From Frateuria sp. Soil773 (GTDB taxonomy: Bacteria > Pseudomonadota > Gammaproteobacteria > Xanthomonadales > Rhodanobacteraceae): DNA of 64,000 nucleotides. The position numbers and the translations under genes were made by a program. Of the stretch, positions 1,620 through 56,897 are shown one piece after another (within the stretch, counting starts at the first letter, position 1; each line of letters opens with the position of its first letter). The notes beneath the pieces were generated by a model. That model searched no databases and was not told where the DNA came from. It saw nothing but the letters and a program-made list of their open reading frames with translations. Location: the NCBI RefSeq assembly GCF_001428405.1, contig NZ_LMSL01000034.1, positions 62,622 to 126,621 of the forward strand, given 5' to 3'.

Positions 1620-1740
1620 GCACTGATTTGACCGTCTCGCCGCGCCACGCTTGGCGCCAGCGCTCATGCGACCTGGGCGAGAGCAAAACGTGAATTCGAG
1701 AGGACAGGCGGACTGCCGGGTGGGGCGGATTTGGCTGAAT

Positions 1741-1766
1741 GAACCGCCAGGAACCGCCAGGAACCG
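1741..1766. repeat. 10-bp phased direct repeats upstream of integrase
   Basis: GAACCGCCAG occurs twice in tandem followed by GAACCG. The reverse complement (CTGGCGGTTC) is the unit of a second array just after the integrase gene at 3504-3550. The 10-bp period puts each unit on the same face of the helix, as expected for integrase arm sites or an excisionase array. Confidence 0.7.
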
Positions 1767-1843
1767 TGGTGAAGGGGGCCGCACGGGGGCCGCAAATGGG
1801 AGTATCGTCGGGGCCGCAGCATTCGCCAAGCCGGGGAGCCACG

Positions 1844-3475
1844 ATGGCCGTTCAACTCGAACTTTCGCAAAAACTCGTCGACAGTCTGACCTTCGAGAAC
1901 AGGATCGTGGGTGTGTCCAAGACGGGCCAATACCTCTACGAAAAAACGCCACCGGATGAGACCGAGTGGACCGTGCGCGATGGGGGTAAAACTGGCGTGT
2001 CGGGGTTGATCCTGCGCATCCACCGCTCGACGAAAACGTGGGCCTTCCGGCGCAAGTGGGGTGGCAAATCCCGGCGCGTGAAAATGAGCAGCGCCGACGT
2101 GATGAGCTTGGCGCTGGCACGGCAACGGGCCAGGGCGTGGCAGTTGTCATACGACCAGGGGCATGATCCGCAGCGGTTGATTGCTGACCACCGCGACGAA
2201 ACCCTGCGTGCGGAAGACCAGCGGCGCCTGACGGTCGAGGTGGCGATGCAGAACTTCATCGAATACAAGCGCAAGCACAAGACGAAGCTGGGCGACGACG
2301 GGCGCTTGGACATCGGCGTGGGCAAGCGCCGCAAGGTCGATCCGAAATTGCGGGACTCGTCGACCGAGGATCGGATCAAAGTCCAGCGGTGGCTCACCGG
2401 CTCGCCCATGTGGCGCGTGTCCATCGTCCAGCTGACCGAGGCCCAAGTGGCCGAGAGCCTCACCCCGCTGTTGCATCTGGCAGCCGGCAAGAAAACGGCG
2501 CTCACGTGGGGTCCGAAGTCCGTGAGCAAAGGCACGATGGACAAGATCTATGTGCACCTCGATGGGGCGTGGTGGCGAGCGGCCAAGCAGCTGAAACTGG
2601 GCGTGCTGCGGGAAGAAGGCCCGATTCAAACCTGGCGCCAATCCCATAACAGCGATTGGCCGGGCGACAAGCGTGTGGAGAAGGCGCTCGATACAACGCA
2701 GGATGCGCACATTGTCTGGCTGAAAGCTTTGCTGGCGATGCAGACCGCCGCGCACGATCCGGCCGTGCTCGCGAACCGGCCCGACCCGCGCAGCAAAGCG
2801 ATCAAACCCCATCTGTCCGTGCTCATCGACTTCTATTTGATCCTGACGCTGTTTGGCACTCGGCAGACCGAAACGATGCTCCTGCAATGGCCCCAGGTGG
2901 ACTTCACCAAAGGCTTGGTGTGGCTCTCGGATGACACGACGAAGAGCGGCGCGCAGGACGTCATCCCCCTCACGCCTTGGGCGCGGGACATCCTGGTCGA
3001 ACGCAAACGCCTCAACGAGCTCTGGCGGCCGGACGAACCCGGCACCTTCGTTTTTCCGTCGCGCGAGCATGGCCGGCCGATCAACAGTCCGCGGAGCGTC
3101 CTGGTGGCGTTGGCCGAAGCCACCGGCATCACGATCACGGCGCATGACTTGCGTCGATCGCTGGCCCGCGAAATAGGCAGTGAAGCGGATTTGCTCCGCA
3201 CGGCCAAACTCCTGGTGAGCGGGGCCGCCCTCCACCACGGGGCTGGGCGTGGGGGCAGCAAAGTTGCCGGGGCCACGCAGCGCTATCTCCCCGATCAGGC
3301 CGAAATCCTCCGGCCGCTCTACCAGCAGCGCGAAGATCGGTTGCGTCAGCTCGTGGGGTTGCCCGTGGCGGCGAAGCCGGAAAAAGACAAAAGCGAAGCC
3401 CGCGCGATGATCGAGAAAGTGAAAAACGACCCCGCCTTGCGGGAGGATTTGATCAAGGCACTGCTGGGAACCTGA
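1844..3475 (+). CDS. int: Tyrosine recombinase (ICE integrase)
   Basis: A 543-aa site-specific recombinase that should integrate and excise the element through a tyrosine-DNA covalent intermediate. The catalytic signature is visible in order: R340 in GTRQTE, H434 and R437 in AHDLRRS, H464/H465 in LHHG, and nucleophile Y481 in QRYLP. The N-terminal part (about 1-120) contains LILRIHRSTKTWAFRRKW, an arm-binding-like segment. The ATG at 1844 is preferred over in-frame starts upstream because GGGGAG precedes it. The stretch between core-binding and catalytic residues is longer than in lambda-like integrases. The gene is bracketed by inverted arrays of 10-bp repeats, probably its own arm sites. 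It sits next to tRNA-Phe but on its 5' side, which is unusual if the tRNA 3' end is the target. Confidence 0.9.
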   Translation: MAVQLELSQKLVDSLTFENRIVGVSKTGQYLYEKTPPDETEWTVRDGGKTGVSGLILRIHRSTKTWAFRRKWGGKSRRVKMSSADVMSLALARQRARAWQLSYDQGHDPQRLIADHRDETLRAEDQRRLTVEVAMQNFIEYKRKHKTKLGDDGRLDIGVGKRRKVDPKLRDSSTEDRIKVQRWLTGSPMWRVSIVQLTEAQVAESLTPLLHLAAGKKTALTWGPKSVSKGTMDKIYVHLDGAWWRAAKQLKLGVLREEGPIQTWRQSHNSDWPGDKRVEKALDTTQDAHIVWLKALLAMQTAAHDPAVLANRPDPRSKAIKPHLSVLIDFYLILTLFGTRQTETMLLQWPQVDFTKGLVWLSDDTTKSGAQDVIPLTPWARDILVERKRLNELWRPDEPGTFVFPSREHGRPINSPRSVLVALAEATGITITAHDLRRSLAREIGSEADLLRTAKLLVSGAALHHGAGRGGSKVAGATQRYLPDQAEILRPLYQQREDRLRQLVGLPVAAKPEKDKSEARAMIEKVKNDPALREDLIKALLGT

Positions 3476-8913: not shown

Positions 8914-9558
8914 ATGAACGCACAATCGCATCGCACCCACACCCGCGGCTTCGGTCTCTTTGAAACCATCCTGACCTTTGCCATCCTGATTGCCGCCAGC
9001 GCCACGGTGTGGGCATTGGCCGCACCCGCAGGCGTCACGACTCAGGTTGCCGCCGAGACCACGCGCCTCAGCACCCTCGTGCAAAACATCGATGGCGCTT
9101 TCGCCAATGCCGGCGACTTTGCCGGGGTCACGACAGCCAACGGCATCCGCGACGGCTGGCAGGCCCCGGGCATCTCACCGGTCGATACCGCCTGGGGCAC
9201 CTTCGACCTGGCCCCGGCCACCGTGCACGCGCCAAACGATGCGTGGTCCGCCAGTTATTCCACGGTCCCGCCCGAAGCGTGCGCCCAACTCACCGCCCAG
9301 GCCCTCCATTCCATGGCCTGGCTGGCCGTCACCGTCGATGGCACGTCCGTCAGCACGACCACCGCCCAGAGCGCGTGCACGGATCCGCAGCACCCCACGC
9401 ACGCTCTGGTCTTGGTGCGCTACGTCGGCACGAAGACCGGCCCGACCTCCGGCCTGCAACCGCTGTGCTTCGATCGCTACCGCAAAGACCCGCGCGGCTA
9501 CGAAACCGGGTGTCCGCAAAACGACTCGGCCTATGCACCCGCACCCCACACGCTCTGA
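8914..9558 (+). CDS. Type IVb-like (PilS-family) pilin
   Basis: 214 aa. A short leader ends RG12, followed by F13GLFETILTFAIL: prepilin peptidase would cut after Gly12, and Glu17 is the conserved +5 glutamate. The hydrophobic helix continues to about residue 40. The C-terminal domain contains cysteine pairs (EACAQL, SACTDP, LCFDRY, TGCPQN) that could form the disulphide loop typical of pilins. It probably builds a thin conjugative pilus for mating in liquid. The start is placed just before the leader peptide. A second pilin operon lies at 51-53.7 kb and shares the promoter type. The pilus assembly ATPase and secretin are not in this window. Confidence 0.8.
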   Translation: MNAQSHRTHTRGFGLFETILTFAILIAASATVWALAAPAGVTTQVAAETTRLSTLVQNIDGAFANAGDFAGVTTANGIRDGWQAPGISPVDTAWGTFDLAPATVHAPNDAWSASYSTVPPEACAQLTAQALHSMAWLAVTVDGTSVSTTTAQSACTDPQHPTHALVLVRYVGTKTGPTSGLQPLCFDRYRKDPRGYETGCPQNDSAYAPAPHTL

Positions 9559-9573
9559 GCGAAGGGCTACATC

Positions 9574-9930
9574 ATGACCACATCCATCCGCTTCCTCTTC
9601 GCCGCCGCGCTGGCCACCAGCCTCACCCTCACCGTCCATGCGCAGGAGCCGCCTGGGGCGCAGGTGCTTGGGCCATCATGGATCGGCCAGCAGATCGACG
9701 TGCGCGGGTTCGTCATCGCGTGGGATGGCGACTGCCGCCAGGTGGCCGTTGAACGCGACGGGATCGAGGGCGCCGGTGGGCGTGTCTGGGCGTGCTATGG
9801 ACCTGGGATGAGGGCGCCGGAATTGAGCGAAGAGGCGCACGTGCGTGGTGTGGTGAGCGACACACGAATGACGCGCATGGGTCCCCGGTGGCGCGTGGTG
9901 CCCGTGGTGCAACTCCACGCGAAGCGGTGA
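9574..9930 (+). CDS. Secreted protein, 118 aa
   Basis: Residues 1-23 form a clear Sec signal peptide with likely cleavage after VHA. The mature part (about 95 aa) is beta-rich (IGQQIDVRGFVIAWDG and HVRGVVSDTRMTRMGPRW), which suggests a small OB-like barrel. It follows the pilin gene by 15 bp and probably belongs to the same operon, so an envelope or pilus-related role is plausible. I do not recognise the family. Confidence 0.7.
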   Translation: MTTSIRFLFAAALATSLTLTVHAQEPPGAQVLGPSWIGQQIDVRGFVIAWDGDCRQVAVERDGIEGAGGRVWACYGPGMRAPELSEEAHVRGVVSDTRMTRMGPRWRVVPVVQLHAKR

Positions 9931-10025
9931 GTGCTTTTCCCGGGGCTTCTTGCCATTGAGCCAGGCGCCGAAGGCGGCTGAACATTGGGGAGATCTGGGC
10001 GCGTGGGTGGAGCAAAAGCGCTGAA

Positions 10026-10212
10026 TGGAAAAGCAGAAGAGCAGTGGCGCAGCGTGGCTCGGCCACGCATGAAGGCGCCTTGATCGTGTAGGGAAATCCT
10101 GACCGATCGTGTCGCAAAAATAGATCGAAAACGGCCTTGCGCGGCGGGAAGTTTCGTCTATGTTGGACTTACAGGGAGCCCAGACAGGGAGCCCAAATCC
10201 CAGGAGAAACCC
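10026..10212 (+). repeat. Regulatory cassette, copy 1
   Basis: Shared blocks in order: GCAGAAGAGCAG; hairpin GCGTGGC-TCG-GCCACGC; GTGTAGGGAAATCCTGAC; TGTCGCAAAAATAGATCG; promoter TTGCGC-N16-TATGTT; leader GGGAGCCC...; ribosome site AGGAGAAA before the ATG at 10213. In this copy the second leader arm reads GGGAGCCC instead of GGGGCACCC, so the leader is two direct repeats, not a hairpin. Copies 2-4 are at 13548, 14073 and 16497, with a partial copy at 11276. Confidence 0.8.
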
Positions 10213-10635
10213 ATGAGCACGAAGACCATTACAAACACCACCGCAGACCTCCGCGACCAGTTCGCTATGGCGGCACTGACCGACTTGCTGGCGAGTGAGG
10301 AGGGCATATCTAGCCATTGGGCAGCTGACCGCGCTTATGAAGTCGCGGACGAGATGTTGTTTGCTCGCGACCAGCCGCGTCAGGAGAAGAATTTTTGCAT
10401 CCACGCATGCAACTTCATCTGCATGGAAACCGGTGCTGACAATGTTTCGCGGTGGAGTGTGAAAGTGGCAGATGGTGGCCGGGGATTTGAGCTCGAAGTC
10501 AAAGCGGATGCGGAAAAGGATGAGCTTTTCTATGACGCACCTTTCGCCTTCCTCTATGACGAAGAAGAAACCTTGTATGACAAGGTCGGCGATGCAATCA
10601 ACATTGCCATGGGCTGTTCTGCGGCAAGCGTTTGA
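10213..10635 (+). CDS. Hypothetical protein, 140 aa (shares domain with the 16728 gene)
   Basis: First gene behind cassette copy 1, with AGGAGAAACCC before the ATG. Residues 79-103 (SRWSVKVADGGRGFELEV onward) align with residues 22-47 of the 76-aa product at 16728-16958 (SKWNVVVSDGENEFEIEV), and both continue into a very acidic stretch. The first 60 residues are an added helical region with several alanine-rich helices, and three cysteines lie at 62-70. There is no signal peptide or membrane segment. The shared domain and shared promoter cassette show that the two genes spread by duplication. Function unknown. Confidence 0.7.
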   Translation: MSTKTITNTTADLRDQFAMAALTDLLASEEGISSHWAADRAYEVADEMLFARDQPRQEKNFCIHACNFICMETGADNVSRWSVKVADGGRGFELEVKADAEKDELFYDAPFAFLYDEEETLYDKVGDAINIAMGCSAASV

Positions 10636-10687
10636 ACCCTCGACCGGCCACGGACGGCTCTTCCAACACCCCACCGAGACCACACCC

Positions 10688-11002
10688 ATGAAACCCGAAC
10701 CGCTCAGCAAAACCTACATCACCGACGTCGACGGCAACGAACTCCCGATCGCGGCCACGCGGAATCCGAACGCCGCGTTCCACTTCGCACAAGTGGGCGT
10801 GGTCCCAGACGGCACGGTGTGGCGCTGCGACGCCATCCAGGGACGCGCGATGACCCACCGCCTCACGTTCACCTCTTACTACGCGCACGCCAGCCGCACC
10901 GGTCACCCCATGGGCTGGTTGCTCTTCCGCCAGATGCTCGCACACGAAGCCACGGCCAAGTGGGAACGCGAACTGGAAGCTCAGCACGCCCTGGCCGCCT
11001 AA
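10688..11002 (+). CDS. Hypothetical protein, 104 aa
   Basis: Starts at the ATG at 10688 after a short spacer from the preceding gene. No strong ribosome site is visible (CCACCGAGACC), as for many genes here that carry GAGACCA before the ATG. The protein is soluble, with ITDVDGNELPIAATRN near the start and an alanine/glutamate-rich helical end. I do not recognise it. Probably co-transcribed from cassette copy 1. Confidence 0.6.
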   Translation: MKPEPLSKTYITDVDGNELPIAATRNPNAAFHFAQVGVVPDGTVWRCDAIQGRAMTHRLTFTSYYAHASRTGHPMGWLLFRQMLAHEATAKWERELEAQHALAA

Positions 11003-11029
11003 CCTCACCACACATCCCGGAGAAACACC

Positions 11030-11224
11030 ATGAACACTTCAACCACCGCCGATCGCTCTGACCTGCAAAACCTGCCGACTCAGGTTGCCCTTGAAGCTTT
11101 TTCCCGGCTCTCTCGTGCGCAATCCCGGTTGGCTCAGACCGACTCAGCGGCCTTCCGCCAAGCGTATGAAGCCAGCGCCCGCCAGGTGCTCGCTGAGCTG
11201 AAAGCCCAGAACGGCGCCGCTTGA
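11030..11224 (+). CDS. Small helical protein, 64 aa
   Basis: CGGAGAAACACC precedes the ATG. The product is almost entirely helical (VALEAFSRLSRAQSRLAQ, then RQAYEASARQVLAELKAQ), consistent with a two-helix hairpin. No known family. Last gene before the partial cassette at 11276. Confidence 0.6.
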   Translation: MNTSTTADRSDLQNLPTQVALEAFSRLSRAQSRLAQTDSAAFRQAYEASARQVLAELKAQNGAA

Positions 11225-11275
11225 AAAACCCCCTGAACCCGCCTCAACTTTCTCAACTATTTTTCGCCAACCCAC

Positions 11276-11356
11276 TTGACAGCCCCGCACGTTCGACTAT
11301 GTTCAAAGTATGGGGAGCCCAGACAGGGCACCCGTCATATCCCCCAGGAGCCGACC
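11276..11356 (+). promoter_or_regulatory. Regulatory cassette, partial copy (promoter and leader hairpin)
   Basis: TTGACA (11276-11281), a 16-bp spacer, TATGTT (11298-11303), then a leader with GGGAGCCC and GGGCACCC arms able to pair, and CAGGAG before the ATG at 11357. The upstream half of the full cassette is absent. Confidence 0.75.
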
Positions 11357-11632
11357 ATGATTTTCCATAGCCACACCCGCATCGCTGACGCTGACCGCAC
11401 CCTGGACGGCTCCCCCATCCCCGTCGCCCAGGAACCCTGGCCGTTCCGTTCCGATTTCGTGCGCAACCTCCTGGCCGACGCCGGCTACTCCGAAACCAGC
11501 CTGCGCGCCATCGAATACAAGGTCGCGCACCCGAGCGAAGTGGAACCCGACCTGCGGCTCTTCGACTTGAACCTGCGCGCCTCCGCACGCGGCTACGCCG
11601 ACCCCATGCCGCTGAGCATGGCGGTTGCCTGA
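11357..11632 (+). CDS. Hypothetical protein, 91 aa
   Basis: First gene behind the partial cassette. Soluble, with FRSDFVRNLLADAGYSETSL, a helix-turn-helix-like pattern, and HPSEVEPDLRLFDLNLRA. No recognised family. The start is set by CAGGAGCCGACC. Confidence 0.6.
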   Translation: MIFHSHTRIADADRTLDGSPIPVAQEPWPFRSDFVRNLLADAGYSETSLRAIEYKVAHPSEVEPDLRLFDLNLRASARGYADPMPLSMAVA

Positions 11633-11655
11633 TCCCACCCATCGAGACCACGACC

Positions 11656-12165
11656 ATGCCTCTCTTTCAGCCTTTCATCCCCAAAGCCGCCATCGACGTC
11701 CAGCCGGAAACCCGGCCCATCTTCCAGGCGATCCTCAACAGCAACGTCGATGCCGTGGTGGCTGCCATGGTGGCCGGCGAAGACCTCAACGCTGCCAGTG
11801 CCTTCCGTCTGACGCCCTTGCATGTGGCTTGCCGCGTGTATGGAATGAAAGCCGGCCCCGGTTTCTGCCGTCCCGCGGACGCTGAGCTGATCATCAAGAT
11901 CCTGCTTTCCGCCGGTGCGTCCCCGCTCGCTCGCGATGCCTTGGGCCACATGCCCACCGAGTATTGCGAAGGGCATTCGCCGAAGTGCCTGCGTGATGCG
12001 ATGCAGGAACTGGCACGCCAAGGCACCTGGCCCGAACCGAACCCGAGCGGCTTCGATTACGAAGAAGGGGACGTGCGACCGGTGAAACGTGCGCGCAGTG
12101 CCACCCATGTCCCGGTGGGCGGTTACGTGCCATGGCGCGAACGCGTGCGCAAGGCGGCCGCGTGA
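11656..12165 (+). CDS. Ankyrin-repeat protein, 169 aa
   Basis: Ankyrin features are visible: ILNSNVDAVVAAMVAGEDLN, then RLTPLHVACR and IIKILLSAGASPLARDALGH. These make about three repeats that give a helical solenoid for protein binding. A basic tail (VRPVKRARS) follows. It is one of three ankyrin proteins in the element (others at 35665 and 49833). Its stop overlaps a GTG start of a very small frame (GTGA). The target is unknown; ankyrin proteins of mobile elements often bind host or competing proteins. Confidence 0.75.
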   Translation: MPLFQPFIPKAAIDVQPETRPIFQAILNSNVDAVVAAMVAGEDLNAASAFRLTPLHVACRVYGMKAGPGFCRPADAELIIKILLSAGASPLARDALGHMPTEYCEGHSPKCLRDAMQELARQGTWPEPNPSGFDYEEGDVRPVKRARSATHVPVGGYVPWRERVRKAAA

Positions 12166-12248
12166 ACGCCGTCGACCTCTTCCACTTCCTCAACAAGCGC
12201 ATGGGTCCACAAAGCGGCCTGCGCTTCACCGGAGCAAAAAAACGATGA
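12162..12248 (+). CDS. Tiny coupled frame, 28 aa
   Basis: A GTG start overlaps the ankyrin stop (GTGA) and the TGA stop overlaps the parA start (ATGA), so ribosomes could pass through all three. The peptide is basic at the end (FTGAKKR). It may simply carry translation into parA. There is no other evidence of function. Confidence 0.4.
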   Translation: MNAVDLFHFLNKRMGPQSGLRFTGAKKR

Positions 12249-12865
12249 ACCCCCACCGCGTTCTTCACTGCTACTCGCCAAAGGGCGGCAGTGGCAAAAC
12301 CATGCTGGCCCTCACGCTTGCCGGCGCCCTCGCTCAACATGGGCGTGTCCTGGTCGTCGATTACGACCCGAACGGGAACGATGGGGGCGCCTTGCGCTGG
12401 GCCGCCCAAGCCCGTGACTGCGATCGACCCACCAGTTTCATGGTGTCGCCCGCGATGCCCCGGCGCCCGGAGGATTTCGACGTGATCCTGATCGACCATG
12501 CGCCTGGGCGACCGGCACGGGTGACCGACGGGCAGGTGATCATCCCCACGACCCTGGATCCTGGCACCTATTTCTCGGCTCGCCGGGCGCTCGACGTGCT
12601 GCGCAAGCGCAAACCGGTGTTGGTCGCCAACAGGGTGCGCCTCGATCGCGCTGAGCCCCGCCGCCTGCTGGCCCAATTGCCGGGCACCCTGGCGCTGAGC
12701 GATCGCGCCATTTTTGCCAGCGCGTATGGCGTGGGCGCCACGATCTGGGACGAGGACGCCGGGCTGCGCAACGCCCAGGCCGCGCGGGCCGAGTTTCAGC
12801 CGGTGGTCGACGCCGTGTTGGCGCGGGCAGGGTTCCCTGTTCGGGTTCCCGGGGAGGCCGCATGA
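12245..12865 (+). CDS. parA: ParA-like partition ATPase
   Basis: 206 aa. The deviant Walker A motif S11PKGGSGKT19 with the signature lysine is clear, followed by VLVVDYDPNGN (A' region) and DVILIDHAP (Walker B). C-terminal motifs match MinD/ParA proteins of small size. It should bind nucleoid DNA with ATP and position or segregate the excised element, acting with a centromere-binding partner. The next gene overlaps its stop by ATGA and is the obvious candidate for the partner. Confidence 0.85.
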   Translation: MNPHRVLHCYSPKGGSGKTMLALTLAGALAQHGRVLVVDYDPNGNDGGALRWAAQARDCDRPTSFMVSPAMPRRPEDFDVILIDHAPGRPARVTDGQVIIPTTLDPGTYFSARRALDVLRKRKPVLVANRVRLDRAEPRRLLAQLPGTLALSDRAIFASAYGVGATIWDEDAGLRNAQAARAEFQPVVDAVLARAGFPVRVPGEAA

Positions 12866-13521
12866 ACGCTATCATCGACCCCATGGCCACGACCAAAAAA
12901 ACGACTGCGAAGCCTGCCGCGAAGAAAGCCGGCGCCTGGATCACGAAGGCGGCTGCGGCCCCGGCAAAGGATGGGCGCACGCAACGGCCCACGAAAGCTG
13001 AGGCGCGCCCGATGCCGCCCGGTTCCACGTTCCGGTTTGAAGTCTCCGGGGGCGCGGGCCAAGTGATCATGGCGGCCCGGATCCCGACCGCGACCTCCCG
13101 TGATGGTCAGTTCTCCCTGCCGCCGAACCTGGAACGGCAGGCGCGGGATGCGACTGGCGAAAGCAACTGGTCTTCGGCGATCATCGCACTGGCCGACTAC
13201 GCCATCGACGTGCTGGAACAGACGCCCGGTGCGGCCACGATCACGCCAGACAGCAACGCGAGCGGCGAGGGCAAGGTGTGCTCACGACTGTCCGTGGAGC
13301 CGGGCAAAAAGTTGACCATCACTCTTGCGGCACCGCTGCCCGCCTGGCACAAGCAGGGCCGTCGCCGCATCGGTGTCCCCGAGGACATCCGCGCGCGGAT
13401 CAATGGCCTGATCGTGCAGGGCAGTTTCACCGGTGTGCTGTTGGGCCTGGCCCAATTCGCCCTGGAACACCTGCGCAAACACAAGAAGCGGCTGCTGGTG
13501 TTGCCGGCCAACCTGGACTGA
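12862..13521 (+). CDS. Putative partition partner of ParA, 219 aa
   Basis: Coupled to parA by an ATGA overlap. The first 50 residues are a Lys/Ala-rich disordered tail (TTKKTTAKPAAKKAGAW), which resembles nucleic-acid-binding tails. Two similar halves follow: ATSRDGQFSLPPNLERQARD and GRRRIGVPEDIRARINGLIV each precede a helical stretch (NWSSAIIALADYAIDVLE; GSFTGVLLGLAQFALEHL). This suggests a tandem ribbon-helix-helix-like protein within one chain. No ParB signature is present. Assignment as centromere-binding protein rests mainly on gene order. Confidence 0.6.
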   Translation: MNAIIDPMATTKKTTAKPAAKKAGAWITKAAAAPAKDGRTQRPTKAEARPMPPGSTFRFEVSGGAGQVIMAARIPTATSRDGQFSLPPNLERQARDATGESNWSSAIIALADYAIDVLEQTPGAATITPDSNASGEGKVCSRLSVEPGKKLTITLAAPLPAWHKQGRRRIGVPEDIRARINGLIVQGSFTGVLLGLAQFALEHLRKHKKRLLVLPANLD

Positions 13522-13547
13522 GCGCAGCGGTGGGGCAGCGCCAGGTG

Positions 13548-13757
13548 GGCCGCTCCCGCGGCCAGCTTGGTGTGAAAAGCGGAAGAGCAGGGACGCAGCG
13601 TGGCTTGGCCACGCTTGAAAGGCGCCGGATGTGTAGGGAAATCCTGACTGATCTTGTCGCAAAAATAGATCGAAAACGGCCTTGCGCACCTGGATTTTTC
13701 CTCTATGTTGGACTTATAGGGAGCCCTGACGGGGCACCCATAACCCAGGAGAAACAC
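13548..13757 (+). repeat. Regulatory cassette, copy 2
   Basis: Starts with hairpin GGCCGC-TCCC-GCGGCC, then GCCAGCTTGGTGTGAAAAGC, hairpin GCGTGGC-TTG-GCCACGC, GTGTAGGGAAATCCTGAC, TGTCGCAAAAATAGATCG, promoter TTGCGC-N16-TATGTT, leader arms GGGAGCCC/GGGGCACCC and AGGAGAAAC before the ATG at 13758. Confidence 0.85.
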
Positions 13758-14087
13758 ATGAGCAGAAAATTAAGCGTTCTTTCCATTGAAGAGCTGCCTT
13801 CCGAGGCGCGGTGGTTTGTCATGCGCACGTTTGCGATCAGTTTCATGGATTCAGGGGACACAAAAATCGTTCGAGCACGCCTGAGCCGATCGGGGTATGT
13901 AACTTTCGAAGAGAGCTTTATTTCACTTATGACTCCGATCCAGATGTGCCAAGTTGTGGCACTGGTTCAAGTCTTGTTGTGTGATCTGCTCAAAGCACCT
14001 TATAGCGAAGGCGGTGCAGGTGGCTTCAAGAGCTGGCGTGAGTCAGCGGAGCATTGGGAAGCCGTCATCAACGCCAGCTTGGTGTGA
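13758..14087 (+). CDS. Hypothetical protein, 109 aa
   Basis: Gene behind cassette copy 2. Mixed alpha/beta, no signal peptide, with a hydrophobic helix (MCQVVALVQVLLCDLL) that is probably a buried core helix. Its last residues (NASLV) and its stop codon are encoded by the first bases of cassette copy 3, so insertion of the cassette changed the end of this protein. GC content is lower than that of its neighbours. No recognised family. Confidence 0.6.
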   Translation: MSRKLSVLSIEELPSEARWFVMRTFAISFMDSGDTKIVRARLSRSGYVTFEESFISLMTPIQMCQVVALVQVLLCDLLKAPYSEGGAGGFKSWRESAEHWEAVINASLV

Positions 14088-14293
14088 AAAGCGAAAGAGC
14101 AGGGGCGCAGCGCGGGCAAGCCGCGCCGAGAGGCGCCCCTTGGCGTGTAGGGAAAACCTGGCTTCACGCGTCGAAAAAATGAGGGCAAATATCTTGTCTA
14201 TTTTGGTTAAATGGGCTTGCGCAGCTCTTATTTTTCGCTAGATTGTAGACATAGGGAGCCCAAACGGGGCACCCACAATCCAGAGGAAACACC
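14073..14293 (+). repeat. Regulatory cassette, copy 3
   Basis: Begins GCCAGCTTGGTGTGAAAAGC, then a hairpin of the GCGCGG/CCGCGC type, GTGTAGGGAAAACCTGGC, a longer A/T-rich spacer, promoter TTGCGC-N16-TAGATT, leader arms GGGAGCCC/GGGGCACCC and AGAGGAAAC. The A/T-rich spacer is shared in part with copy 4, so copies 3 and 4 form a subtype. Confidence 0.85.
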
Positions 14294-14587
14294 ATGTCTC
14301 ACTTCGATAACCGACTCAATGATGCCGCCGCGTTCCTGATCCCTCACATGGAAGGAAACGACCACTTCCAAGATTTCAGCTTGGCCGATCGCATCAAGGA
14401 TCCAGATGGCCTGTATGCCATAGAAGCCGAAATGACCGACAGCGATGATGAGCTGACACATAGCGCAATCGTGCGCGAGGCAATGGGGTTGATGGCAGCG
14501 GCGACTCCGGCAGAACGCTTGGATCTGTTCAAGGCGTATTCGCGGAGGGACCAAGACGAGATCGCCTCAATCGAACTTGGCGCCTAA
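14294..14587 (+). CDS. Hypothetical acidic protein, 97 aa
   Basis: Gene behind cassette copy 3, with AGAGGAAACACC before the ATG. Strongly acidic (AEMTDSDDELTHSAIV), mostly helical, no cysteine. Acidic small proteins of mobile elements can be DNA mimics that block restriction or nucleoid proteins, but nothing here proves that role. No recognised family. Confidence 0.6.
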   Translation: MSHFDNRLNDAAAFLIPHMEGNDHFQDFSLADRIKDPDGLYAIEAEMTDSDDELTHSAIVREAMGLMAAATPAERLDLFKAYSRRDQDEIASIELGA

Positions 14588-14660
14588 ACGGGCCCAGATG
14601 GGGCTGGGGAGACCTGGCCCTTCCGCCCCCACGATCACTCTACCCATCGCGAGACCACCC

Positions 14661-15118
14661 ATGACCATGACCATGACCATGACCAAGACCTTGACCCAAC
14701 ACCGGCGCGCCGCTGCTCAGACCTACCTGGAAGGCCTGGCCGCCTTCGAGAAGAACATCGGCAACAACCCCCGATCTTCCATGACCCCAACGCTCAGGCG
14801 GTCGATTACGAAGCGGCCGCGTTCATGGGCATGCTGATTCGCCAGGACCAAGCCCTTCTCAACGACGACGATGAGGTGACCGATGAGGCCGCAGAATTGG
14901 CCACGTGCATGCACCCCATGGATCCAAACCTGCTCATCCGCACGGCTTACGTGCTCGCAAGTCGGCATGAAGAAGTCCGGATGAACCTTGAACTGAAAAC
15001 CGCTGACGCAACCGACGATGAGCTGGACCACATCGCCCGGCTGAATGGGGAACCGGCCAGCTTTGATGCGGCGGCCGGTCCGGGTGCGCCGTTTCCAAGC
15101 TCGAACAGCCGAAACTGA
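14661..15118 (+). pseudogene. Small acidic protein gene with a one-base frameshift
   Basis: The start lies in a tandem hexamer (ATGACC x4 then AAGACC), so any of four in-frame ATGs could be used. The first frame reads to AAFEKNIGNNP, and the rest of the protein continues in another frame (IFHDPNAQAVDYEAAAFMGM onward to SSNSRN). One C is missing from the run at 14768-14772; a run of six would restore a protein of about 152 aa. Either the gene is broken, the run was misread, or expression uses slippage. Function unknown. Confidence 0.6.
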
Positions 15119-15132
15119 GGGATGCCTTCCGC

Positions 15133-15753
15133 TTAGCGCAGCTGGGAGCGGCGCATTTTGTAGCGATTGCGTGGGGCGAAGAACTGGCCCGGCGGCAGCG
15201 GCACCTCAGGCACATCGGCGCAGGTCCATTCCTTCGTGCCCAGGTTCCACATCGAGTCGATGGTGTAGAGGAACGCGTGCTCCGCTTCCCCATCCAATCC
15301 AAGGATTTCCTGGAAGTCGCACTGGTGCCCGATCCGCAGGTTTCCTTTGCCGTGGTCATACATGCCCAATCGCACGTTCCAGAAGTCGCCCACGGCGCCG
15401 GTTAAGGCCTCAACGCGTTTCGTGTAAGCCTCAACGTCAATCTTCCAATAGGTCCGGGCCGCCAGGATGACCGTGAGGCTGCCTTTGTGCTCCCCTATGA
15501 ACTGGACACCCGGCAACAGGCCGGCCATCAACATTTCTTCAATTACGGCAATGATGCGGGTGTCATGGTCATCGTCCCAGATCACTGCAAAGTCGTGGAT
15601 ATGGGGAAGGTGCGTTGGGCGTTGTTCGACATCACGTGAGTCGATGGCCCGAAACACGGAAAAGGCGCCGTAGAACCGATCACCAGGCCTGTCCGGCTGA
15701 TCAAAGAGGCACTGGAAAAAAGACGAATACGTCTGCAAGGCGCTGGTGGCCAT
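15133..15753 (-). CDS. Hypothetical protein, 206 aa
   Basis: Start at 15753 chosen because GGGAGACCCAC precedes the ATG (MATSALQTYSSFF); the frame continues upstream without a better site. Mixed alpha/beta soluble protein with IHDFAVIWDDDHDTRIIAVI and a C-terminal proline-rich end (VPEVPLPPGQFFAPRNRY). No known motif. It is alone on the minus strand, convergent with the frameshifted gene and divergent from the acetyltransferase gene. Confidence 0.65.
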   Translation of the reverse strand: MATSALQTYSSFFQCLFDQPDRPGDRFYGAFSVFRAIDSRDVEQRPTHLPHIHDFAVIWDDDHDTRIIAVIEEMLMAGLLPGVQFIGEHKGSLTVILAARTYWKIDVEAYTKRVEALTGAVGDFWNVRLGMYDHGKGNLRIGHQCDFQEILGLDGEAEHAFLYTIDSMWNLGTKEWTCADVPEVPLPPGQFFAPRNRYKMRRSQLR

Positions 15754-15966
15754 GTGGGTCTCCCATTTCGTTGGAGAACAGTGGATTCCTCCACGTGCGG
15801 CTGAGCTTTCGGCTCTGCCGGATTCGCCCTCAGTTTCACTCAACACGGGCGCCTCGATCAAGGCCTTGGGCTGCTACTGCATTTGCGCCCGGTGCGGCGA
15901 CATGGGCCTTGTCGGAGTGGAGAAAATGGGCGAGGCTTCCTCAGACCACTGACCAAGGAGACGGCC

Positions 15967-16446
15967 GTGCCTGCGATGACTGATCCCTATGCTGCCCTGA
16001 CCTCGTTTCAGCAAGCGCTGAGCCAAGGCGAGATTGCCGTTCAACCCGGGGCGCTCAATCCCGATGTCTTTGTGCATGCGGATCAACCGAACGGCGAGAT
16101 GCGGCTCACGTATGTCCAGGTGGATGGTGGAACAGTGATCGCTTTTGCCACATTTGTGGGCTGCGATCCCGTCGAAGGACGGCCTTGTTTCCAGATCGGA
16201 TATGCGGTGCCAGACACGCGTAGAAACCAAGGCCTGGCTACGTCCCTGGTCAAAGCGGCGATCGCTGAAATGCAACACGGTTTCACACGTGCGCGCCTCA
16301 CGCCGTTTTTCATTGAAGCGATTGTTGGGGTGGACAACCTTGCTTCCCAGCATGTGGCCGCAAAGACACTTTCAGCGGATCGCGTCGAAGTGACGGATCG
16401 ACAGTCCGGCCAGCCCGCCTATCAATACCTGCGCAAAATCGAATGA
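15967..16446 (+). CDS. GNAT-family N-acetyltransferase
   Basis: 159 aa from a GTG at 15967, chosen because AAGGAG ends 6 nt upstream; the ATG at 15976 is too far from it. The acetyl-CoA-binding signature is present as FQIGYAVPDTRRNQGLATSL (R/Q-x-x-G-x-A pattern) followed by the helix VKAAIAEMQHG. GNAT enzymes acetylate amines of proteins, antibiotics or small molecules; the substrate cannot be read here. It could be a toxin of the acyl-tRNA type, but no antitoxin is adjacent. Confidence 0.75.
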   Translation: MPAMTDPYAALTSFQQALSQGEIAVQPGALNPDVFVHADQPNGEMRLTYVQVDGGTVIAFATFVGCDPVEGRPCFQIGYAVPDTRRNQGLATSLVKAAIAEMQHGFTRARLTPFFIEAIVGVDNLASQHVAAKTLSADRVEVTDRQSGQPAYQYLRKIE

Positions 16447-16496
16447 TCAGGTAGGCGGCTTGGACCTGGCGGTGATTGGGAGTGTGCAAGAGGTGT

Positions 16497-16727
16497 GGCC
16501 GCTCCCGCGGCCAGCTTGGTGTGAAAAGCGGAAGAGCAGGGGCGCAGCGCGGGCAAGCCGCGCTTGAAAGGCGCCGGATGTGTAGGGAAATCCTGACGCA
16601 ACGTGTCGCAAAAAAAGATCAAATTATCTCGACTATTTTGCTGAAAAGGGCTTGCGCAACTCTTATTTTTCGTTAGATTGTAGTCATAGGGAGCCCAGAC
16701 GGGGCACCCATAGCCCAGGAGAACACC
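16497..16727 (+). repeat. Regulatory cassette, copy 4
   Basis: Starts GGCCGC-TCCC-GCGGCC like copy 2, then GCCAGCTTGGTGTGAAAAGC, hairpin AGCGCGG-GCAAG-CCGCGCT, GTGTAGGGAAATCCTGAC, A/T-rich spacer, promoter TTGCGC-N16-TAGATT, leader arms GGGAGCCC/GGGGCACCC and AGGAGAAC before the ATG at 16728. Confidence 0.85.
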
Positions 16728-16958
16728 ATGTCATTCACTCTAATTTCTAGCACCAAGCTTGATCACAACGACGACCTCGACCGCGATGTTTCGAAATGGA
16801 ATGTTGTGGTCAGCGATGGCGAGAATGAATTCGAGATCGAAGTCTTCGTCAATGATGACGACAACTCGGTTGAGTTCGAACAACCGGAGGGTCTGGAAGA
16901 CTTCGAGCAGGATGAGCTGTTCGTCCTGCTCGCAGATACAGCGGCCAAGGCGGCCTGA
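16728..16958 (+). CDS. Small acidic protein, 76 aa (paralogous domain)
   Basis: Behind cassette copy 4, with CAGGAGAACACC before the ATG. SKWNVVVSDGENEFEIEV (residues 22-39) aligns with the C-terminal domain of the 140-aa protein at 10213, and a run of Asp/Glu follows in both. It represents the minimal form of that domain. Followed at once by a strong terminator, so it is a single-gene transcript. Its acidity would allow DNA mimicry, but this is speculative. Confidence 0.7.
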   Translation: MSFTLISSTKLDHNDDLDRDVSKWNVVVSDGENEFEIEVFVNDDDNSVEFEQPEGLEDFEQDELFVLLADTAAKAA

Positions 16959-16966
16959 GGAAAGAA

Positions 16967-16990
16967 GCCCCGGGCAACCGGGGCCTTTTT
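16967..16990 (+). terminator. Rho-independent terminator
   Basis: GCCCCGG-GCAA-CCGGGGC followed by CTTTTT directly after the 76-aa gene. Confidence 0.9.
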
Positions 16991-17001
16991 GGGAGGCGAA
17001 C

Positions 17002-17523
17002 ATGAAGATGTATCACCCGAATGGCCACGCATGGCGCGAGCACCACGGCTTTAAGCATCTGCCGCGCATGCCGGTCGACGGCTGGGAACGCTACAAAGAC
17101 CTTGACCATGAAACCCAGCGTCAGGTCAAAGGCATCGTGAAAGGGCGGATCCGCGGCGGCGACTTCCCGTCGATCAGCGAAACCGTGGGCCTGAGTGCCC
17201 ACCACGTGTCGCACTACATCCACATCCTGCGCATCCCTACAACCAACGCGTTTCGGATGCGCAGGCTTGCCAAGCTCTATTGCCAGGGCCTCAGCGCGCC
17301 CGAGGTCGCCCAGCGCATGGGGTTGACCGTTCGCGCGGTGAACGTCCTGCGCGGCCACTTGCGTCTTCCGCCCTTTCCCCGCCAGAAGCATCGGATGAAG
17401 CTCAGCGTGCCGGGGCACCCTGGCCTGACCGTGCGCCAGGTGGCGGAGAAGCTGGGGGTGTCCCGGCAGACCGTTTACAACAGAATCCCAGCGGCTCAGC
17501 GTTCCATCGAGACAACACCATGA
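17002..17523 (+). CDS. Multi-HTH DNA-binding protein, 173 aa
   Basis: GGGAGGCGAAC precedes the ATG. Three helix-turn-helix-like segments occur in a row: DFPSISETVGLSAHHVSHYI (about 52-71), LSAPEVAQRMGLTVRAVNVL (about 98-117) and LTVRQVAEKLGVSRQTVYNR (about 143-162). The last is a textbook HTH. It is probably a regulator or a recruiting factor for transposition-like or transcription processes. It overlaps the next gene by ATGA. Confidence 0.7.
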   Translation: MKMYHPNGHAWREHHGFKHLPRMPVDGWERYKDLDHETQRQVKGIVKGRIRGGDFPSISETVGLSAHHVSHYIHILRIPTTNAFRMRRLAKLYCQGLSAPEVAQRMGLTVRAVNVLRGHLRLPPFPRQKHRMKLSVPGHPGLTVRQVAEKLGVSRQTVYNRIPAAQRSIETTP

Positions 17524-20827: not shown

Positions 20828-21274
20828 TCACCACACCACGCGGAGCCCCATCACCACGCCCGCCACGGCTCCCCCTTGCCACGCGATCCAGTTCCAGAAC
20901 CACGCCCACGGCCGCCTCATGCGCAGTTCCCTGGGCCAGCGCAACCGCCTCACGATTGCCCAACGCGCCTCATCCATGCGGTTGCGCGTGTCTGTCACGA
21001 CAAAGGTTGCCCCAGCCCAGGACTTCGCGACCACCACATAACCGGCGCTGGCGGCCCGGTGGCGCCACGCATATTCGTGGTCTTCCGCCTCGCGTTGCGT
21101 CCCTGTCATTTCTTCCAGTTGCGCAAACCGGAACGGGGCCGCCCAGGCTCGCCGGTGTTCTTTTTCCCGTCGCTTCGCGTCCGTGGTCTGGCCGATGTAG
21201 ACCTGGCCGGCCTCGAACAACAGCGCGTAGAGCACACGCGACCGCCGTTCGTATTTCTGAGCCCGCCCGCTCAT
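20828..21274 (-). CDS. GIY-YIG nuclease-like protein with C-terminal membrane segment
   Basis: 148 aa. The GIY-YIG core is present as LYALLFEAG (first strand) and VYIGQTTDAKRREKEHRRAW, with the catalytic tyrosine and arginine in place; the conserved glutamate is plausibly in DHEYAWRHR. Residues 118-148 are hydrophobic (WFWNWIAWQGGAVAGVVMG), which suggests a membrane anchor, unusual for GIY-YIG nucleases. Last gene of a three-gene minus-strand operon with overlapping ends (start overlaps the stop of the HNH-like gene). It could act on DNA at the membrane during transfer or entry. Confidence 0.7.
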   Translation of the reverse strand: MSGRAQKYERRSRVLYALLFEAGQVYIGQTTDAKRREKEHRRAWAAPFRFAQLEEMTGTQREAEDHEYAWRHRAASAGYVVVAKSWAGATFVVTDTRNRMDEARWAIVRRLRWPRELRMRRPWAWFWNWIAWQGGAVAGVVMGLRVVW

Positions 21275-22065
21275 GCCGCCGCCTGCCGGTGGCCAAATCC
21301 CGTGCGCGCTTTCGCCGGCCGTCCGCGGGCCGCCTGCTGCACCCCATGAAACAGTTCATCCCAGGCGCCCGGCCCCGGTTTCCGCTCCCCATTTCCCGCG
21401 GTTGCCTCAGGCTCCGCCACACCGGCCACGTGCACCCGCCTCAACAAGGCGCCGCGCTCGATGAGCGTCCAAGCCAACCCTTCCCACTCAGACGAGTCCA
21501 CCGCCAGCACGCTGGGCAGCAGTTTCACCGGATGCGCACCGGCCGCCCTTGCGCTTAACGCCAGCGTGGCCCAGGCCATCCCTGGCGTTGCCGCGATCGG
21601 GGCCAGCCAAGTTTCCTCATGCGCATGTAAACAAGAAACCGCGACGCGTGGATGGCGCCACCGGTGTTCGCTGAGCCAGTCGGTGCACACGGCCACGGAG
21701 CGTTGAGCGGCCCCGGGCACGGCATGTTGGGCGGCCGGGGCCAGTGCATCCAGCCGCTGCGCCTGATGACCTTCGGCAAGCGGATTTCCACCTTCCCATG
21801 ACACCGACAGCGGGTCCTGATCGAGCAAAAGCACACGACAGGACGAGCACACGGCCGCCAGATTGCGTTCGGTTTTCTGACCGCCCAACGCGGGCGAAAA
21901 CAGGGGAACGACCGCCAAGGCTTCCTCGCCGCACAGCCAACAATGGTTCCCTGATCGCGTGAGCACGCGCTGACGCAACCACGTTTGAACCGGGGGACCC
22001 TTCGCTCGGAGTGCGGCGGTGGCGTCCATGAAGGCCAGCAGGTGATCCGGCGAAAGCGGGGTCAT
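21271..22065 (-). CDS. HNH-like zinc-binding protein, 264 aa
   Basis: Residues 35-80 carry two CxxC knuckles (HCWLCGEEALAVVPLFSP and NLAAVCSSCR) spaced as in HNH endonucleases, with the typical NLAAVCSSC ending. The paired histidines of an active HNH are not obvious between them (VVPLFSP), so it may bind but not cut DNA. The remaining 180 residues are unassigned and end in a basic tail. Overlaps both neighbours by 4 bp, so the three genes form one translational unit. Confidence 0.6.
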   Translation of the reverse strand: MTPLSPDHLLAFMDATAALRAKGPPVQTWLRQRVLTRSGNHCWLCGEEALAVVPLFSPALGGQKTERNLAAVCSSCRVLLLDQDPLSVSWEGGNPLAEGHQAQRLDALAPAAQHAVPGAAQRSVAVCTDWLSEHRWRHPRVAVSCLHAHEETWLAPIAATPGMAWATLALSARAAGAHPVKLLPSVLAVDSSEWEGLAWTLIERGALLRRVHVAGVAEPEATAGNGERKPGPGAWDELFHGVQQAARGRPAKARTGFGHRQAAA

Positions 22066-22397
22066 GGGGTGCCTTGCGTGCGGTGGGCCGGGGTTCCCTT
22101 TGTGTGTGAAGCAGGGAGCGCGGGCGTGCGGAAACGGACGCCATGTTGCCGTTCGAGCAGGCGGACCCTCAGCACGATCTGATCCGAAAACTCAGAAGCC
22201 AAGGCGAGGCAACCGGCCACATAGGCCGCGCGCGAGAGACCCAGGCGCTCAGCCTCGTGATCACATTCACGGACGATGGGCAGAGGGAGCAACGCGTTCA
22301 GAAGGGCGCGATCCTTGCCTGTGTGATTGAGGCGCCAGTGTTCCTTTTGCGCGCGGGACTTCAAGAGAGCGGGGGAGGGAACGGAGGGTGTGGGCAT
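22062..22397 (-). CDS. Hypothetical protein, 111 aa (first gene of minus operon)
   Basis: Start at 22397 (MPTPSVPSPALL); the frame extends upstream into the promoter and is not used. Helical with ECDHEAERLGLSRAAYVAGC, a pattern similar to the helix-helix part of CopG-like proteins. A promoter with TTTACG-N16-TACGCT lies 36 bp upstream. Could regulate its own operon. Confidence 0.55.
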   Translation of the reverse strand: MPTPSVPSPALLKSRAQKEHWRLNHTGKDRALLNALLPLPIVRECDHEAERLGLSRAAYVAGCLALASEFSDQIVLRVRLLERQHGVRFRTPALPASHTKGTPAHRTQGTP

Positions 22398-22432
22398 GGG
22401 GGAACCTTGCGAGTTGAGTCGACTTAACCAAA

Positions 22433-22460
22433 AGCGTAGAGGAAACCTTTGGGACGTAAA
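22433..22460 (-). promoter_or_regulatory. Promoter of the HNH/GIY-YIG operon
   Basis: On the minus strand, TTTACG (22460-22455), a 16-bp spacer and TACGCT (22438-22433). Same spacer length as the rest of the ICE promoters. Confidence 0.6.
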
Positions 22461-22598
22461 GGCCTTGGAAAATTTCGACGCAAGAGCCTGAGACTGAAAC
22501 TTTTGGACCTTGTGCGTTCTGGCCGCTCCGAGACTATTGAAGCTTTGGTCTCTGATCTTGTGCCAGAAACAAGGTCGATACACCTGACGCTCCCTTGG

Positions 22599-30331: not shown

Positions 30332-30380
30332 GAAGGTAGGGGGTGACCTGACCCGCACCCCATTCACTGGACCATCGACC

Positions 30381-31034
30381 ATGTTTCCCATCCTCGCTCA
30401 GATCCATCAAGCCGCCCCGGCTTTGCCGCCGGCCATTGCGCAACGCGCCCTGGACGCCGCCACCTGCGCCGGCCGCAAGGCACGCCATCTCCTGATCGCA
30501 GACATGTCCCAACCGAGCAGCCACCCGCGCCTGTGGGTGCTTGACCTCACCAACCGTAACCAGCCCGAACTCATCGCCCGCACGTTCGTCGCGCACGGCG
30601 CCGGTTCCGATCCGACCAGCCGCGGCGTGGCCCAGAAATTCAGCAACATTCCAGACAGCAACGCGACCAGCTTAGGCTTGTATCAGGTGGCCGAAAGTTA
30701 CGTGATGGCGCACCACCCCAAGGGCTACCGCCTGGACGGTCTGACCACCGGCTGGGACGACCAGGCCCGCACGCGTGGGGTTGTGCTGCACCCCGCCAGC
30801 TACGTCAGCCTCAGTGGCAACGTGGGCCGGAGCAACGGCTGCCCCGCGCTGAATCCAACGGTCTTCAACCAGCTCGACAAGGAGGGTGCCCTCGCGGGGA
30901 GCCTCTTGTGGATTGATGGTCCCGGCGCCCCCACGATTTCCTGCCCGGCTGCGCAATCGCCCTGGCCCGTGACCGTGTCGCCGGTGTGGGTGGCCGCCGC
31001 TGCACCCGCCTGTTCTCCGAGAGAGCCCTCATGA
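30381..31034 (+). CDS. L,D-transpeptidase-like protein (YkuD_2 type)
   Basis: 217 aa. RLWVLDLTN, RTFVAHGAGSD, SLGLYQVAE, GYRLDGLTTGWDD, VVLHPASYVS and GRSNGCPAL occur in the order typical of the murein L,D-transpeptidase catalytic domain family, with catalytic Cys154 in NGCPAL. Such enzymes cut or cross-link peptidoglycan with a cysteine nucleophile. Only a weak signal-like start (MFPILAQIHQAAPALPPAIA) is seen, so export is uncertain. It may open the wall for the transfer apparatus. Overlaps the next gene by ATGA. Confidence 0.8.
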   Translation: MFPILAQIHQAAPALPPAIAQRALDAATCAGRKARHLLIADMSQPSSHPRLWVLDLTNRNQPELIARTFVAHGAGSDPTSRGVAQKFSNIPDSNATSLGLYQVAESYVMAHHPKGYRLDGLTTGWDDQARTRGVVLHPASYVSLSGNVGRSNGCPALNPTVFNQLDKEGALAGSLLWIDGPGAPTISCPAAQSPWPVTVSPVWVAAAAPACSPREPS

Positions 31035-34057: not shown

Positions 34058-34258
34058 ATGGCGTTCTTCCGTCGAAAGCCTCACACCCCCGATCTGACCA
34101 CCGCCCGCGGCCGCGAGCGTCAAGCCGAGTGGGAAACCATCGCTGTTTCGCCAAAGATCCTCTATCCGGATCTGATGGGTGCGTTCCACGAGGACGCCCT
34201 GGACCTCGCCGATGCCCGCACCGCGCGCGATCGGTCGGAGGATCCGAGTCATGGCTGA
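34058..34258 (+). CDS. Hypothetical protein, 66 aa
   Basis: Starts at the ATG at 34058 (a GTG at 34049 is possible) and overlaps ardC by 8 bp. Basic first third (FFRRKPHTPD), acidic end. First gene of the ardC operon; no family recognised. Confidence 0.55.
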   Translation: MAFFRRKPHTPDLTTARGRERQAEWETIAVSPKILYPDLMGAFHEDALDLADARTARDRSEDPSHG

Positions 34259-41400: not shown

Positions 41401-41528
41401 AAGCCTTCCGAGGCATCCGGGAGCGTCTGGTGGCCAAGGCGCAGGAACGCGAGCGCGAACAGTCCCGGGCGGCCGCACGGGAGCGCAAGCGGACCCGTGA
41501 ACGGTCCGAAGGCGGGTTGTCGCGCTGA
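38475..41528 (+). CDS. traI: MOBF relaxase-helicase TraI/TrwC
   Basis: 1017 aa. The relaxase domain (about 1-300) has candidate nicking tyrosines in STEYYLD near residue 28 and the metal-binding histidines H206 and H208 in QVHTHALVYN. The helicase domain (about 480-860) has Walker A G521RAGTGKT528, LLIVDEAGMVG, GDKLQLQSVERGG and GTVHKSQGQGKEQVF, typical of TraI/RecD. It nicks at oriT, stays attached to the 5' end and unwinds the transferred strand. Shorter than F TraI (1756 aa) and close to TrwC (966 aa). The C-terminus is a basic tail. Confidence 0.92.
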   Translation: MLSIAAIKNTSADGSGGGMPAYLKSTEYYLDATGVEQSSSKWCGRGADALGLTGQTVTEELMDKLADGFAPDGTKLRQNAGRKPEFRPTLDRNGQQRLDEQGQPMGVWVGERVGFDCTFSAPKSFSIAFAAADPALRDRMLDTHHKAVETGLRMMELHAAETRRGHGSKDVIEVDGLLVSRHTHYAAREHDKVDGTPGTGIDMQVHTHALVYNVCLGKDGKWATLEPREMYAWKMAVGAIYRAELAKGLQALGFGIEDDIRLDENGQVKDRFFKVSGVPDELVRERSGRRKQIEAFMEANPEASAQEATMATRAGKDEPSFGELVNSIWKDELNDWRARNPGQFPQDMRELLNRPLTPEQQQEQERQAQRTQQEQDKEILDELHETQSVWSRKDLTRAIAERSAGKRDAAGIIHEVSQFLGRNDLALILPEAIHKDDRGEKLARRHRAVRFADPKVVAQEQTLVREALARKDEQTIRLDPESVKVAVAEMEKERGFQLNAEQLKSVDFVCLESGGVAVVEGRAGTGKTTSADAIVKAFQASGFEVIGAATGWDAAKKLESESAGAITGHSIASLNAKLDKGKMQLNDKTLLIVDEAGMVGTPSLTKLMSHAHAAGAKVLLQGDKLQLQSVERGGPLRLLAKELGSVDLRDIRRQRHQADRDTAHEFYAAGDDTLRSRGQNLAAGTAILQRMEQRGQLQGYADRDQAKKYLVQDYMQSPLPAREKLIIAGPRADVAELNHLVRQAHRDRGELGPDVAVDVRHPRTDVKETVALAVGDRVRFGKKDEDLGLVNGTRAVVTGLTKQKDGHVHIEATIESDIKTQDGRKLSFSTADYAYLEHGYAGTVHKSQGQGKEQVFHCFHRGMTDRQLSLVAFTRAKDSYAMYGGPEIHDIGIDASFATDRLQTNALTEGLHGKTTQEVIRERAAALEAQTRADSEAKRQARNEPHAMREQPTPERPTAEQTAERQPDPRTVRAAEAFRGIRERLVAKAQEREREQSRAAARERKRTRERSEGGLSR

Positions 41529-56880: not shown

Positions 56881-56897
56881 GGTGCGCACGCGAAAAT

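Follow-up and report, generated by a model that had tools for sequence, protein, structure and literature searches.

Why do several small genes of one mobile element, most of them unrelated to each other, begin with the same stretch of upstream DNA? The question arises at a locus of Frateuria sp. Soil773, which we analysed within a window (W) of 64,000 nucleotides (nt) on contig C34 of the 4.55-Mb genome. The window holds nearly the whole of a ~64-kb element bounded by a 36-bp direct repeat; judged by its genes it is an integrative conjugative element, with integrase, att-like tRNA repeat, coupling protein and relaxase all present. We propose, at a probability of roughly 60%, that the repeated stretches are copies of one repressible promoter tying scattered small genes of this element into one regulon. 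An operator of this kind provides a sequence handle on genes with a possible role when a conjugative element arrives in a recipient.

A repeated promoter and palindrome before small genes

The preliminary description of this locus reported four full copies and one partial copy of a cassette, each before a different small gene, and a direct-repeat search with alignment confirmed it. The core reads TTGCGC or TTGACA, 16 nt, TATGTT or TAGATT, 9 nt, then GGGAGCCC-N5-GGGCACCC; the full copies additionally have a hairpin block upstream, together with a GTGTAGGGAAA box. The promoter geometry predicts a transcription start adjacent to the palindrome, which we call the operator.

All five copies lie on the plus strand. 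Cassette 1 (10026-10212) has its GTAGG box at 10086-10103, the -35 hexamer TTGCGC at 10137-10142, the -10 hexamer TATGTT at 10159-10164 and the operator at 10174-10194, with AGGAG ahead of the gene at 10213. The same parts fall at 13631-13648, 13682-13687, 13704-13709 and 13719-13739 in cassette 2 (13548-13757), at 14145-14162, 14217-14222, 14239-14244 and 14254-14274 in cassette 3 (14073-14293), and at 16580-16597, 16652-16657, 16674-16679 and 16689-16709 in cassette 4 (16497-16727). Between upstream boxes and promoter, cassettes 3 and 4 have 21 extra nt, equal to two helical turns. The fifth copy (11276-11356) is reduced to promoter, palindrome and ribosome site (-35 TTGACA 11276-11281, -10 TATGTT 11298-11303, operator 11313-11333); it is the first promoter of a run comprising 11357, an ankyrin gene at 11656, parA at 12245 and the gene at 12862.

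At up to three mismatches, GTGTAGGGAAATCCTGAC matches the window four times, against a shuffle mean of 0.01, and GGGAGCCCNNACNGGGCACCC ten times, against 0.21. The ten are the five leaders, three mirror-strand matches of leaders, one match within parA on the minus strand (12830) and one at 30282, the last two failing the matrix threshold used below. Across its own genome GTGTAGGGAAANCCTG occurs exactly four times, all in this region. Copy 1 is without the GCCAGCTTGGTGTGAAAAGC block and matches the family reference at 63%. The paired leader arms described earlier are present, but their pairing is imperfect, with one A-A mismatch, and in copy 1 the second operator arm repeats the first, giving a direct repeat instead.

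The genes led by the cassettes, all on the plus strand, are 10213-10635 (140 amino acids, acidic, net charge -15), 11357-11632 behind the core-only copy (91 amino acids), 13758-14087 (109 amino acids), 14294-14587 (97 amino acids, acidic, net -13) and 16728-16958 (76 amino acids, very acidic, net -18). Their products had been called unrelated except for two, and indeed only those of 10213 and 16728 match (35% over 34 amino acids, E 2.8e-5). Against Pfam and PHROGs the five proteins gave no Pfam match, no clear function and no known anti-defence family; across roughly residues 2-57 the 10213 protein matches several PHROGs, of which most have no known function and one is named a transcriptional regulator. 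A structure model of the 14294 family is helical, with a predicted local distance difference test score (pLDDT) of 60.

Three collinear elements with private palindromes

A search with the protein encoded at 12862 found it in three of 299 genomes of the order, its own included. The other two, G082 and G206, are genomes of two other species in the same family as the host. Their elements are in large part collinear with W, starting at the primase gene and continuing through the transfer genes and beyond. Their upstream repeats, found without assuming any motif, have palindromes of their own: GTGATC[G/T]AACGATCAC in G082 and ATGGGGTGA-N3-[C/A]ACCCC in G206.

The layout is common to the three elements: a TTGNNN-16-TANNNT promoter, with an element-specific palindrome within 6-13 nt at the predicted start. 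Within each element one operator recurs in fixed register at dispersed promoters, at 5 strong sites in W, 9 in G082 and 10 in G206. The spacing between -35 and -10 is 16 in 24/24 strong sites, a constancy that is partly by construction, the hexamers having been chosen by score and three reassigned by hand. The 'modular expression unit' and 'shared operator control' of the preliminary description are supported by these results and extended to two collinear elements that keep the layout and use their own palindromes.

Scanning each element with the matrices of the others gave no match in six of six scans at the matrix threshold, and random sequences matched in dinucleotide composition (five per motif-element pair) gave none for any pair. 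The matrices were built from sites that they then find (nine of the ten G206 sites, the reversed one at 19428 being excluded), and the site counts are largely by construction; both sets of zeros are not. A looser palindrome pattern allowing two mismatches brought further matches in G206, several of which, judged from their flanks, fall within genes or at gene ends; none passes the matrix threshold.

The strongest evidence that something element-specific reads the palindrome comes from one gene pair wired to two private sites. From the start codon, gene 14779 of G082 and gene 16491 of G206 are 86% identical in DNA (590/686 columns); upstream, identity is 42% over the last 45 columns (19/45), and each has the palindrome of its own element. 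Three collinear elements with private operators offer a natural experiment in the joint change of a regulator and its scattered sites.

Other genes recur under the sites as well. A site directly leads parA in G082 (18254) and G206 (19428), and in W the site at 11313 leads the run upstream of parA. A YkuD-type gene is preceded by a site in both G082 (37544) and G206 (39204); its syntenic counterpart in W (~30381-31034) follows a possible degenerate sixth operator at 30340-30360 (plus strand), missed by the matrix, which keeps GGG...GCACCC at the 21-bp span. Homologues of the 14294 protein, found in 3/233 genomes including its own, are operator-led in G082 and second after a site in G206.

The W operator pattern occurs in one of 233 family genomes and the cassette DNA in one of 61, in both cases the genome of origin. 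Against plasmids nothing matched within the cassettes, the region giving one 149-base match to a Rhizobium plasmid at ~15455-15603, outside them; the 12862 and 10213 proteins likewise found nothing useful among plasmids. Viral contigs held no operator pattern and 17 single matches of the GTGTAGG pattern, which we take as chance, and two protein alignments scanned against genomes and viral contigs yielded no confirmed relative. An alignment search for the 12862 protein found it in 3/369 genomes, its own included; a match in genome G770 had E 8.9e-4. Our best reading of these sequences is an operator-controlled regulon in a little-sampled family of integrative elements.

Could the cassettes be alike only through recent duplication, or as a small mobile repeat with no regulatory role? 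Flanks are also similar within an element, and the upstream hairpin block is conserved. Yet core-only copies retain just promoter and palindrome, and three elements share the layout despite their different sequences, with promoter register and phasing kept. We consider a non-regulatory repeat very improbable.

What acts on the cassettes

The regions upstream of the promoters bear on the form of DNA in which these promoters work. In the 75 nt before -35 there are 13 copies of GTCGAT (1000 random draws: mean 0.9, maximum 6), carried by 3/9 G082 and 7/10 G206 cassettes and ending 6, 16-17 or 27 nt before -35. GTAGG starts 49-50, 59 or 70 nt before -35 in 10 of the 24 cassettes (W 4/5, G082 4/9, G206 2/10), two G082 copies having a further one at 7; it is absent from all 10 cassettes with a TTGAC -35 and present in 10 of the 14 others. 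The box positions differ by steps of 10-11 or 21 nt, that is, one or two helical turns, although cassette copies are related by descent and these positions are not independent events. Such steps suggest a box-binding protein constrained to one side of the helix, and the GTAGG or GTCGAT boxes probably bind a second regulator.

This helical phasing fits a double-stranded, protein-regulated promoter. An alternative raised in the preliminary description is an Frpo-like (Frpo/ssi) promoter, in which a hairpin of the incoming single strand holds -35 and -10 and transcription begins before second-strand synthesis. We folded the template strand of all 24 cassettes with DNA parameters and 25 shuffles each, the transferred strand being inferred. 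The promoter hexamers are not preferentially paired (mean pairing 0.55 for -35 and 0.40 for -10, against 0.55 overall), and the mean z is -1.5, whereas five F plasmid windows before ssb, among which the F promoter itself was not located, gave z of -2.0 to -7.1. On the other side, z reaches -2 or below in 9/24 copies (W 3/5, G082 0/9, G206 6/10), which tells against a purely double-stranded operator, and some copies may have a single-strand role; the lowest values are -4.8 at W 14254, -4.4 at G206 15432 and -4.0 at G206 16449. The cassette genes also point towards the TraD/TrwC block, much as the leading-region genes of F are oriented towards its transfer genes (PMC11541004). The single-strand mechanism is not supported in general, and we think it improbable.

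Similar doubt applies to an element acting in RNA, where the palindrome would be a 5' hairpin that stabilises the mRNA or binds a protein or small RNA. The palindrome begins at about the predicted transcription start, which would place it at the 5' end of every mRNA, and its mean pairing is 0.67 against 0.55 overall, by the same folding of the template strand with DNA parameters. But the arms vary without compensation, as judged by eye: GATCAC becomes GACCAC or GACCCC in G082, CACCCC becomes AACCCC in G206, and W copy 1 is a direct repeat. Merely stabilising the mRNA would not require an exact sequence particular to each element, and the G206 parA site has the opposite orientation. Rfam at gathering threshold found nothing over the window except tRNA, and a permissive search of 9500-17500 gave two matches, both far below the cut-offs. 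An RNA-level role, too, seems improbable to us.

Under repression at the DNA level, a protein made by the element would bind the palindrome on double-stranded DNA and block initiation. Its likeliest source would be the gene that follows parA in the par operon (12862-13521, plus strand, 219 amino acids), which would then be autoregulated. In a recipient lacking the repressor, every copy would be active from entry until the repressor accumulates, and the small proteins so made, some of them acidic and perhaps DNA-mimicking, might help establishment. The identity of the repressor, early expression after transfer and any anti-defence roles are the parts of this scheme that we infer.

The proposed operator-binding protein is a putative ParB-like partner of ParA. 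Its start overlaps the parA stop, the order of parA and partner is the same in G082 and G206 and, more distantly, in genome G253, and two strand-helix-helix units can be picked out by eye. The W protein is 34 and 38% identical to its G082 and G206 relatives. Two things make it the best candidate in our view: in all three elements the par operon is led by the palindrome, and the protein diverges as the palindromes do. The chance that it is the repressor we put at about even. If so, partition would be tied to establishment in an integrative element, as with StbA on R388. Of the other candidates we set two aside: the S24-peptidase protein (gene at 61957-62556) is 64 and 70% conserved, a poor fit to diverging operators, and the helix-turn-helix protein at 17002-17523 occurs in W and G082 but its best G206 match has only E 0.42.

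The par genes of the relatives show peculiarities of their own. In G253, of another family in the same order, the distant relative of the 12862 protein follows parA among repeated upstream cassettes of different sequence; the reverse strand of G253:C46:1-40000 has at least two families of such cassettes, one of them at five places, three just after parA and ParB-like genes. The G206 ParA homologue (G206:C1:2040933-2041532, minus strand) appears to be circularly permuted: its sequence opens with the second conserved strand, the Walker A motif (KGGVGRST) lies C-terminally, and this C-terminal portion can be aligned to the N-terminal end of the window ParA (score 60; maximum 41 in 500 shuffles).

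Might the palindromes serve the ParA/ParB-like pair first of all, as a dispersed centromere (parS), and regulate genes only secondarily? In each of the three elements, sites lie around parA and lead its operon. In pSM19035 the small ribbon-helix-helix ParB (omega, of the omega/delta pair) likewise has parS sites overlapping the promoters of several genes, and full ATPase activation takes at least four contiguous repeats (PMC9499535). Those sites are tandem 7-bp repeats, unlike the one palindrome per promoter seen here; single sites fixed relative to promoters would be odd for a centromere, and both the ParB function and the fold of the 12862 protein are only putative. We hold a centromere as the primary role to be unlikely.

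At a net charge per residue below -0.08, acidic first genes number 3/5 in W, 2/8 in G082 and 1/9 in G206, a count that omits the gene at W 30382 and those after G082 37544 and G206 39204 and takes the G206 17871 open reading frame from 9 nt before its likely ATG; among small mechanically called open reading frames (55, 64 and 71 in the three elements) 3-4% pass the same threshold. The acidic first genes of G082 and G206 include a homologous pair with net charges of -58 and -53. We guess from the charge that small acidic operator-led proteins may mimic DNA and block host defences. A bolder version joins these threads: the partition protein after parA as master repressor, the private palindrome as dispersed centromere and operator at once, and sister elements in separate immunity-like control groups that trade one common stock of acidic DNA-mimic-like anti-defence genes while the operators are swapped. 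We find this combination possible but doubtful.

Several observations weigh against the proposed regulon or parts of it. Sixteen of the 22 examined first genes are not acidic, none of the five W cassettes carries GTCGAT, and ArdC (34179-35264), the clearest anti-restriction gene of W, has no operator at the matrix threshold. A search of the element for oriT gave no location, and the leading-region position of the cassettes is presumed. For the candidate repressor, Pfam and NCBIfam, including their KorB and ParB models, gave no match and PDB none better than E 0.27; the ribbon-helix-helix reading was made by eye. The best model from its alignment has a pLDDT of 61.5 and the other four are poor (30-37), and a PDB search with the model returned 162 matches, none at E <= 0.001, with no VIA match at Z >= 2. 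As alternative repressors, an XRE-type gene (58499-58837, 40-42% identity) and the S24-peptidase gene are also present in all three elements; both lack an operator at the matrix threshold, and the XRE protein keeps some plausibility as the repressor.

Known plasmid systems offer partial parallels. One is p576 of the pLS20 family in Bacillus, where the ribbon-helix-helix protein Reg represses repeated establishment-gene promoters and its own, the repressor gene lies within the regulon and expression in recipients is transient (PMC8708921). Alike are the repeated conserved upstream sequences (EGeRS2) before mosaic establishment operons and the strong promoters with repressor operators. The p576 operators, however, are pairs of the heptamer TTATCCCnnTTATCCC upstream of -35, and two of four regions have them shortly downstream of the start as well; W cassettes show no such dual motif, differing in operator sequence and position. 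These are moreover Gram-positive plasmids, and the sections consulted do not describe Reg as a ParA partner (PMC8708921).

On R388, ArdK and StbA repress overlapping promoter sets including PardC, with a transient overshoot after transfer; StbA, from the segregation operon, represses its own promoter together with PardC, Porf7, Porf12 and Porf14 (PMC3937220). The CUP elements of IncN plasmids are reported to be ArdK-bound sites (PMC6289460). These systems resemble ours in placing several maintenance-gene promoters under a common repressor, and differ in that the W operator is a palindrome at the transcription start which changes between sister elements. KorB of RK2 acts through many dispersed operators. 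It is reported to be a ParB protein that also represses transcription within the KorB/IncC pair (PMC5577506), whereas the 12862 protein matches no KorB or ParB model (Pfam, NCBIfam).

By analogy, the present system may work like those of R388, p576 and the CUP elements. We do not claim membership, because the p576 operator is absent and the palindrome was not seen to lead any known anti-restriction gene, as judged by Pfam and PHROGs for the five operator-led W proteins. What would set W, G082 and G206 apart, on our best reading of the sequences, is the use of element-specific operators on a common layout. Among the papers listed by searches of the open-licence literature, none names such an element in its title or abstract opening.

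The host element and its other genes

The left copy of the 36-bp direct repeat (1527-1562) lies inside tRNA-Phe, and the right one begins at ~65467, just past the window. Next to the left copy is a tyrosine integrase gene (1739-3475, plus strand; Pfam Phage_integrase and Arm-DNA-bind_3). The element also encodes an MT-A70-type methylase and a DUF5906/D5-type primase-helicase. The ParA-type ATPase gene (12245-12865, plus strand) matches Pfam CbiA / AAA_31, with NCBIfam ParA_partition below cut-off. Further along the plus strand the ArdC region (Pfam ArdcN and MPTase-PolyVal) adjoins the transfer genes, which encode the coupling protein TraD (36118-38262) and the MOBF relaxase TrwC (38475-41528).

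Some minor features deserve mention. A GmrSD-type restriction endonuclease gene lies within the element at 31546-33429, its G082 counterpart being 57% identical, and a HipA-family gene at 45423-46733. A YadA-like trimeric autotransporter gene (54155-56932, minus strand) has nearby a PilS-like gene and a gene with a weak TrbC match below cut-off. The minus-strand trio at 20828-22583 includes one weak GIY-YIG match and one weak IscB match (E 0.0015), both below cut-off, and two of its three genes have G206 homologues. Finally, four tandem ATGACC units at 14661-14684 surround possible start codons of a small gene that comes after cassette 3.

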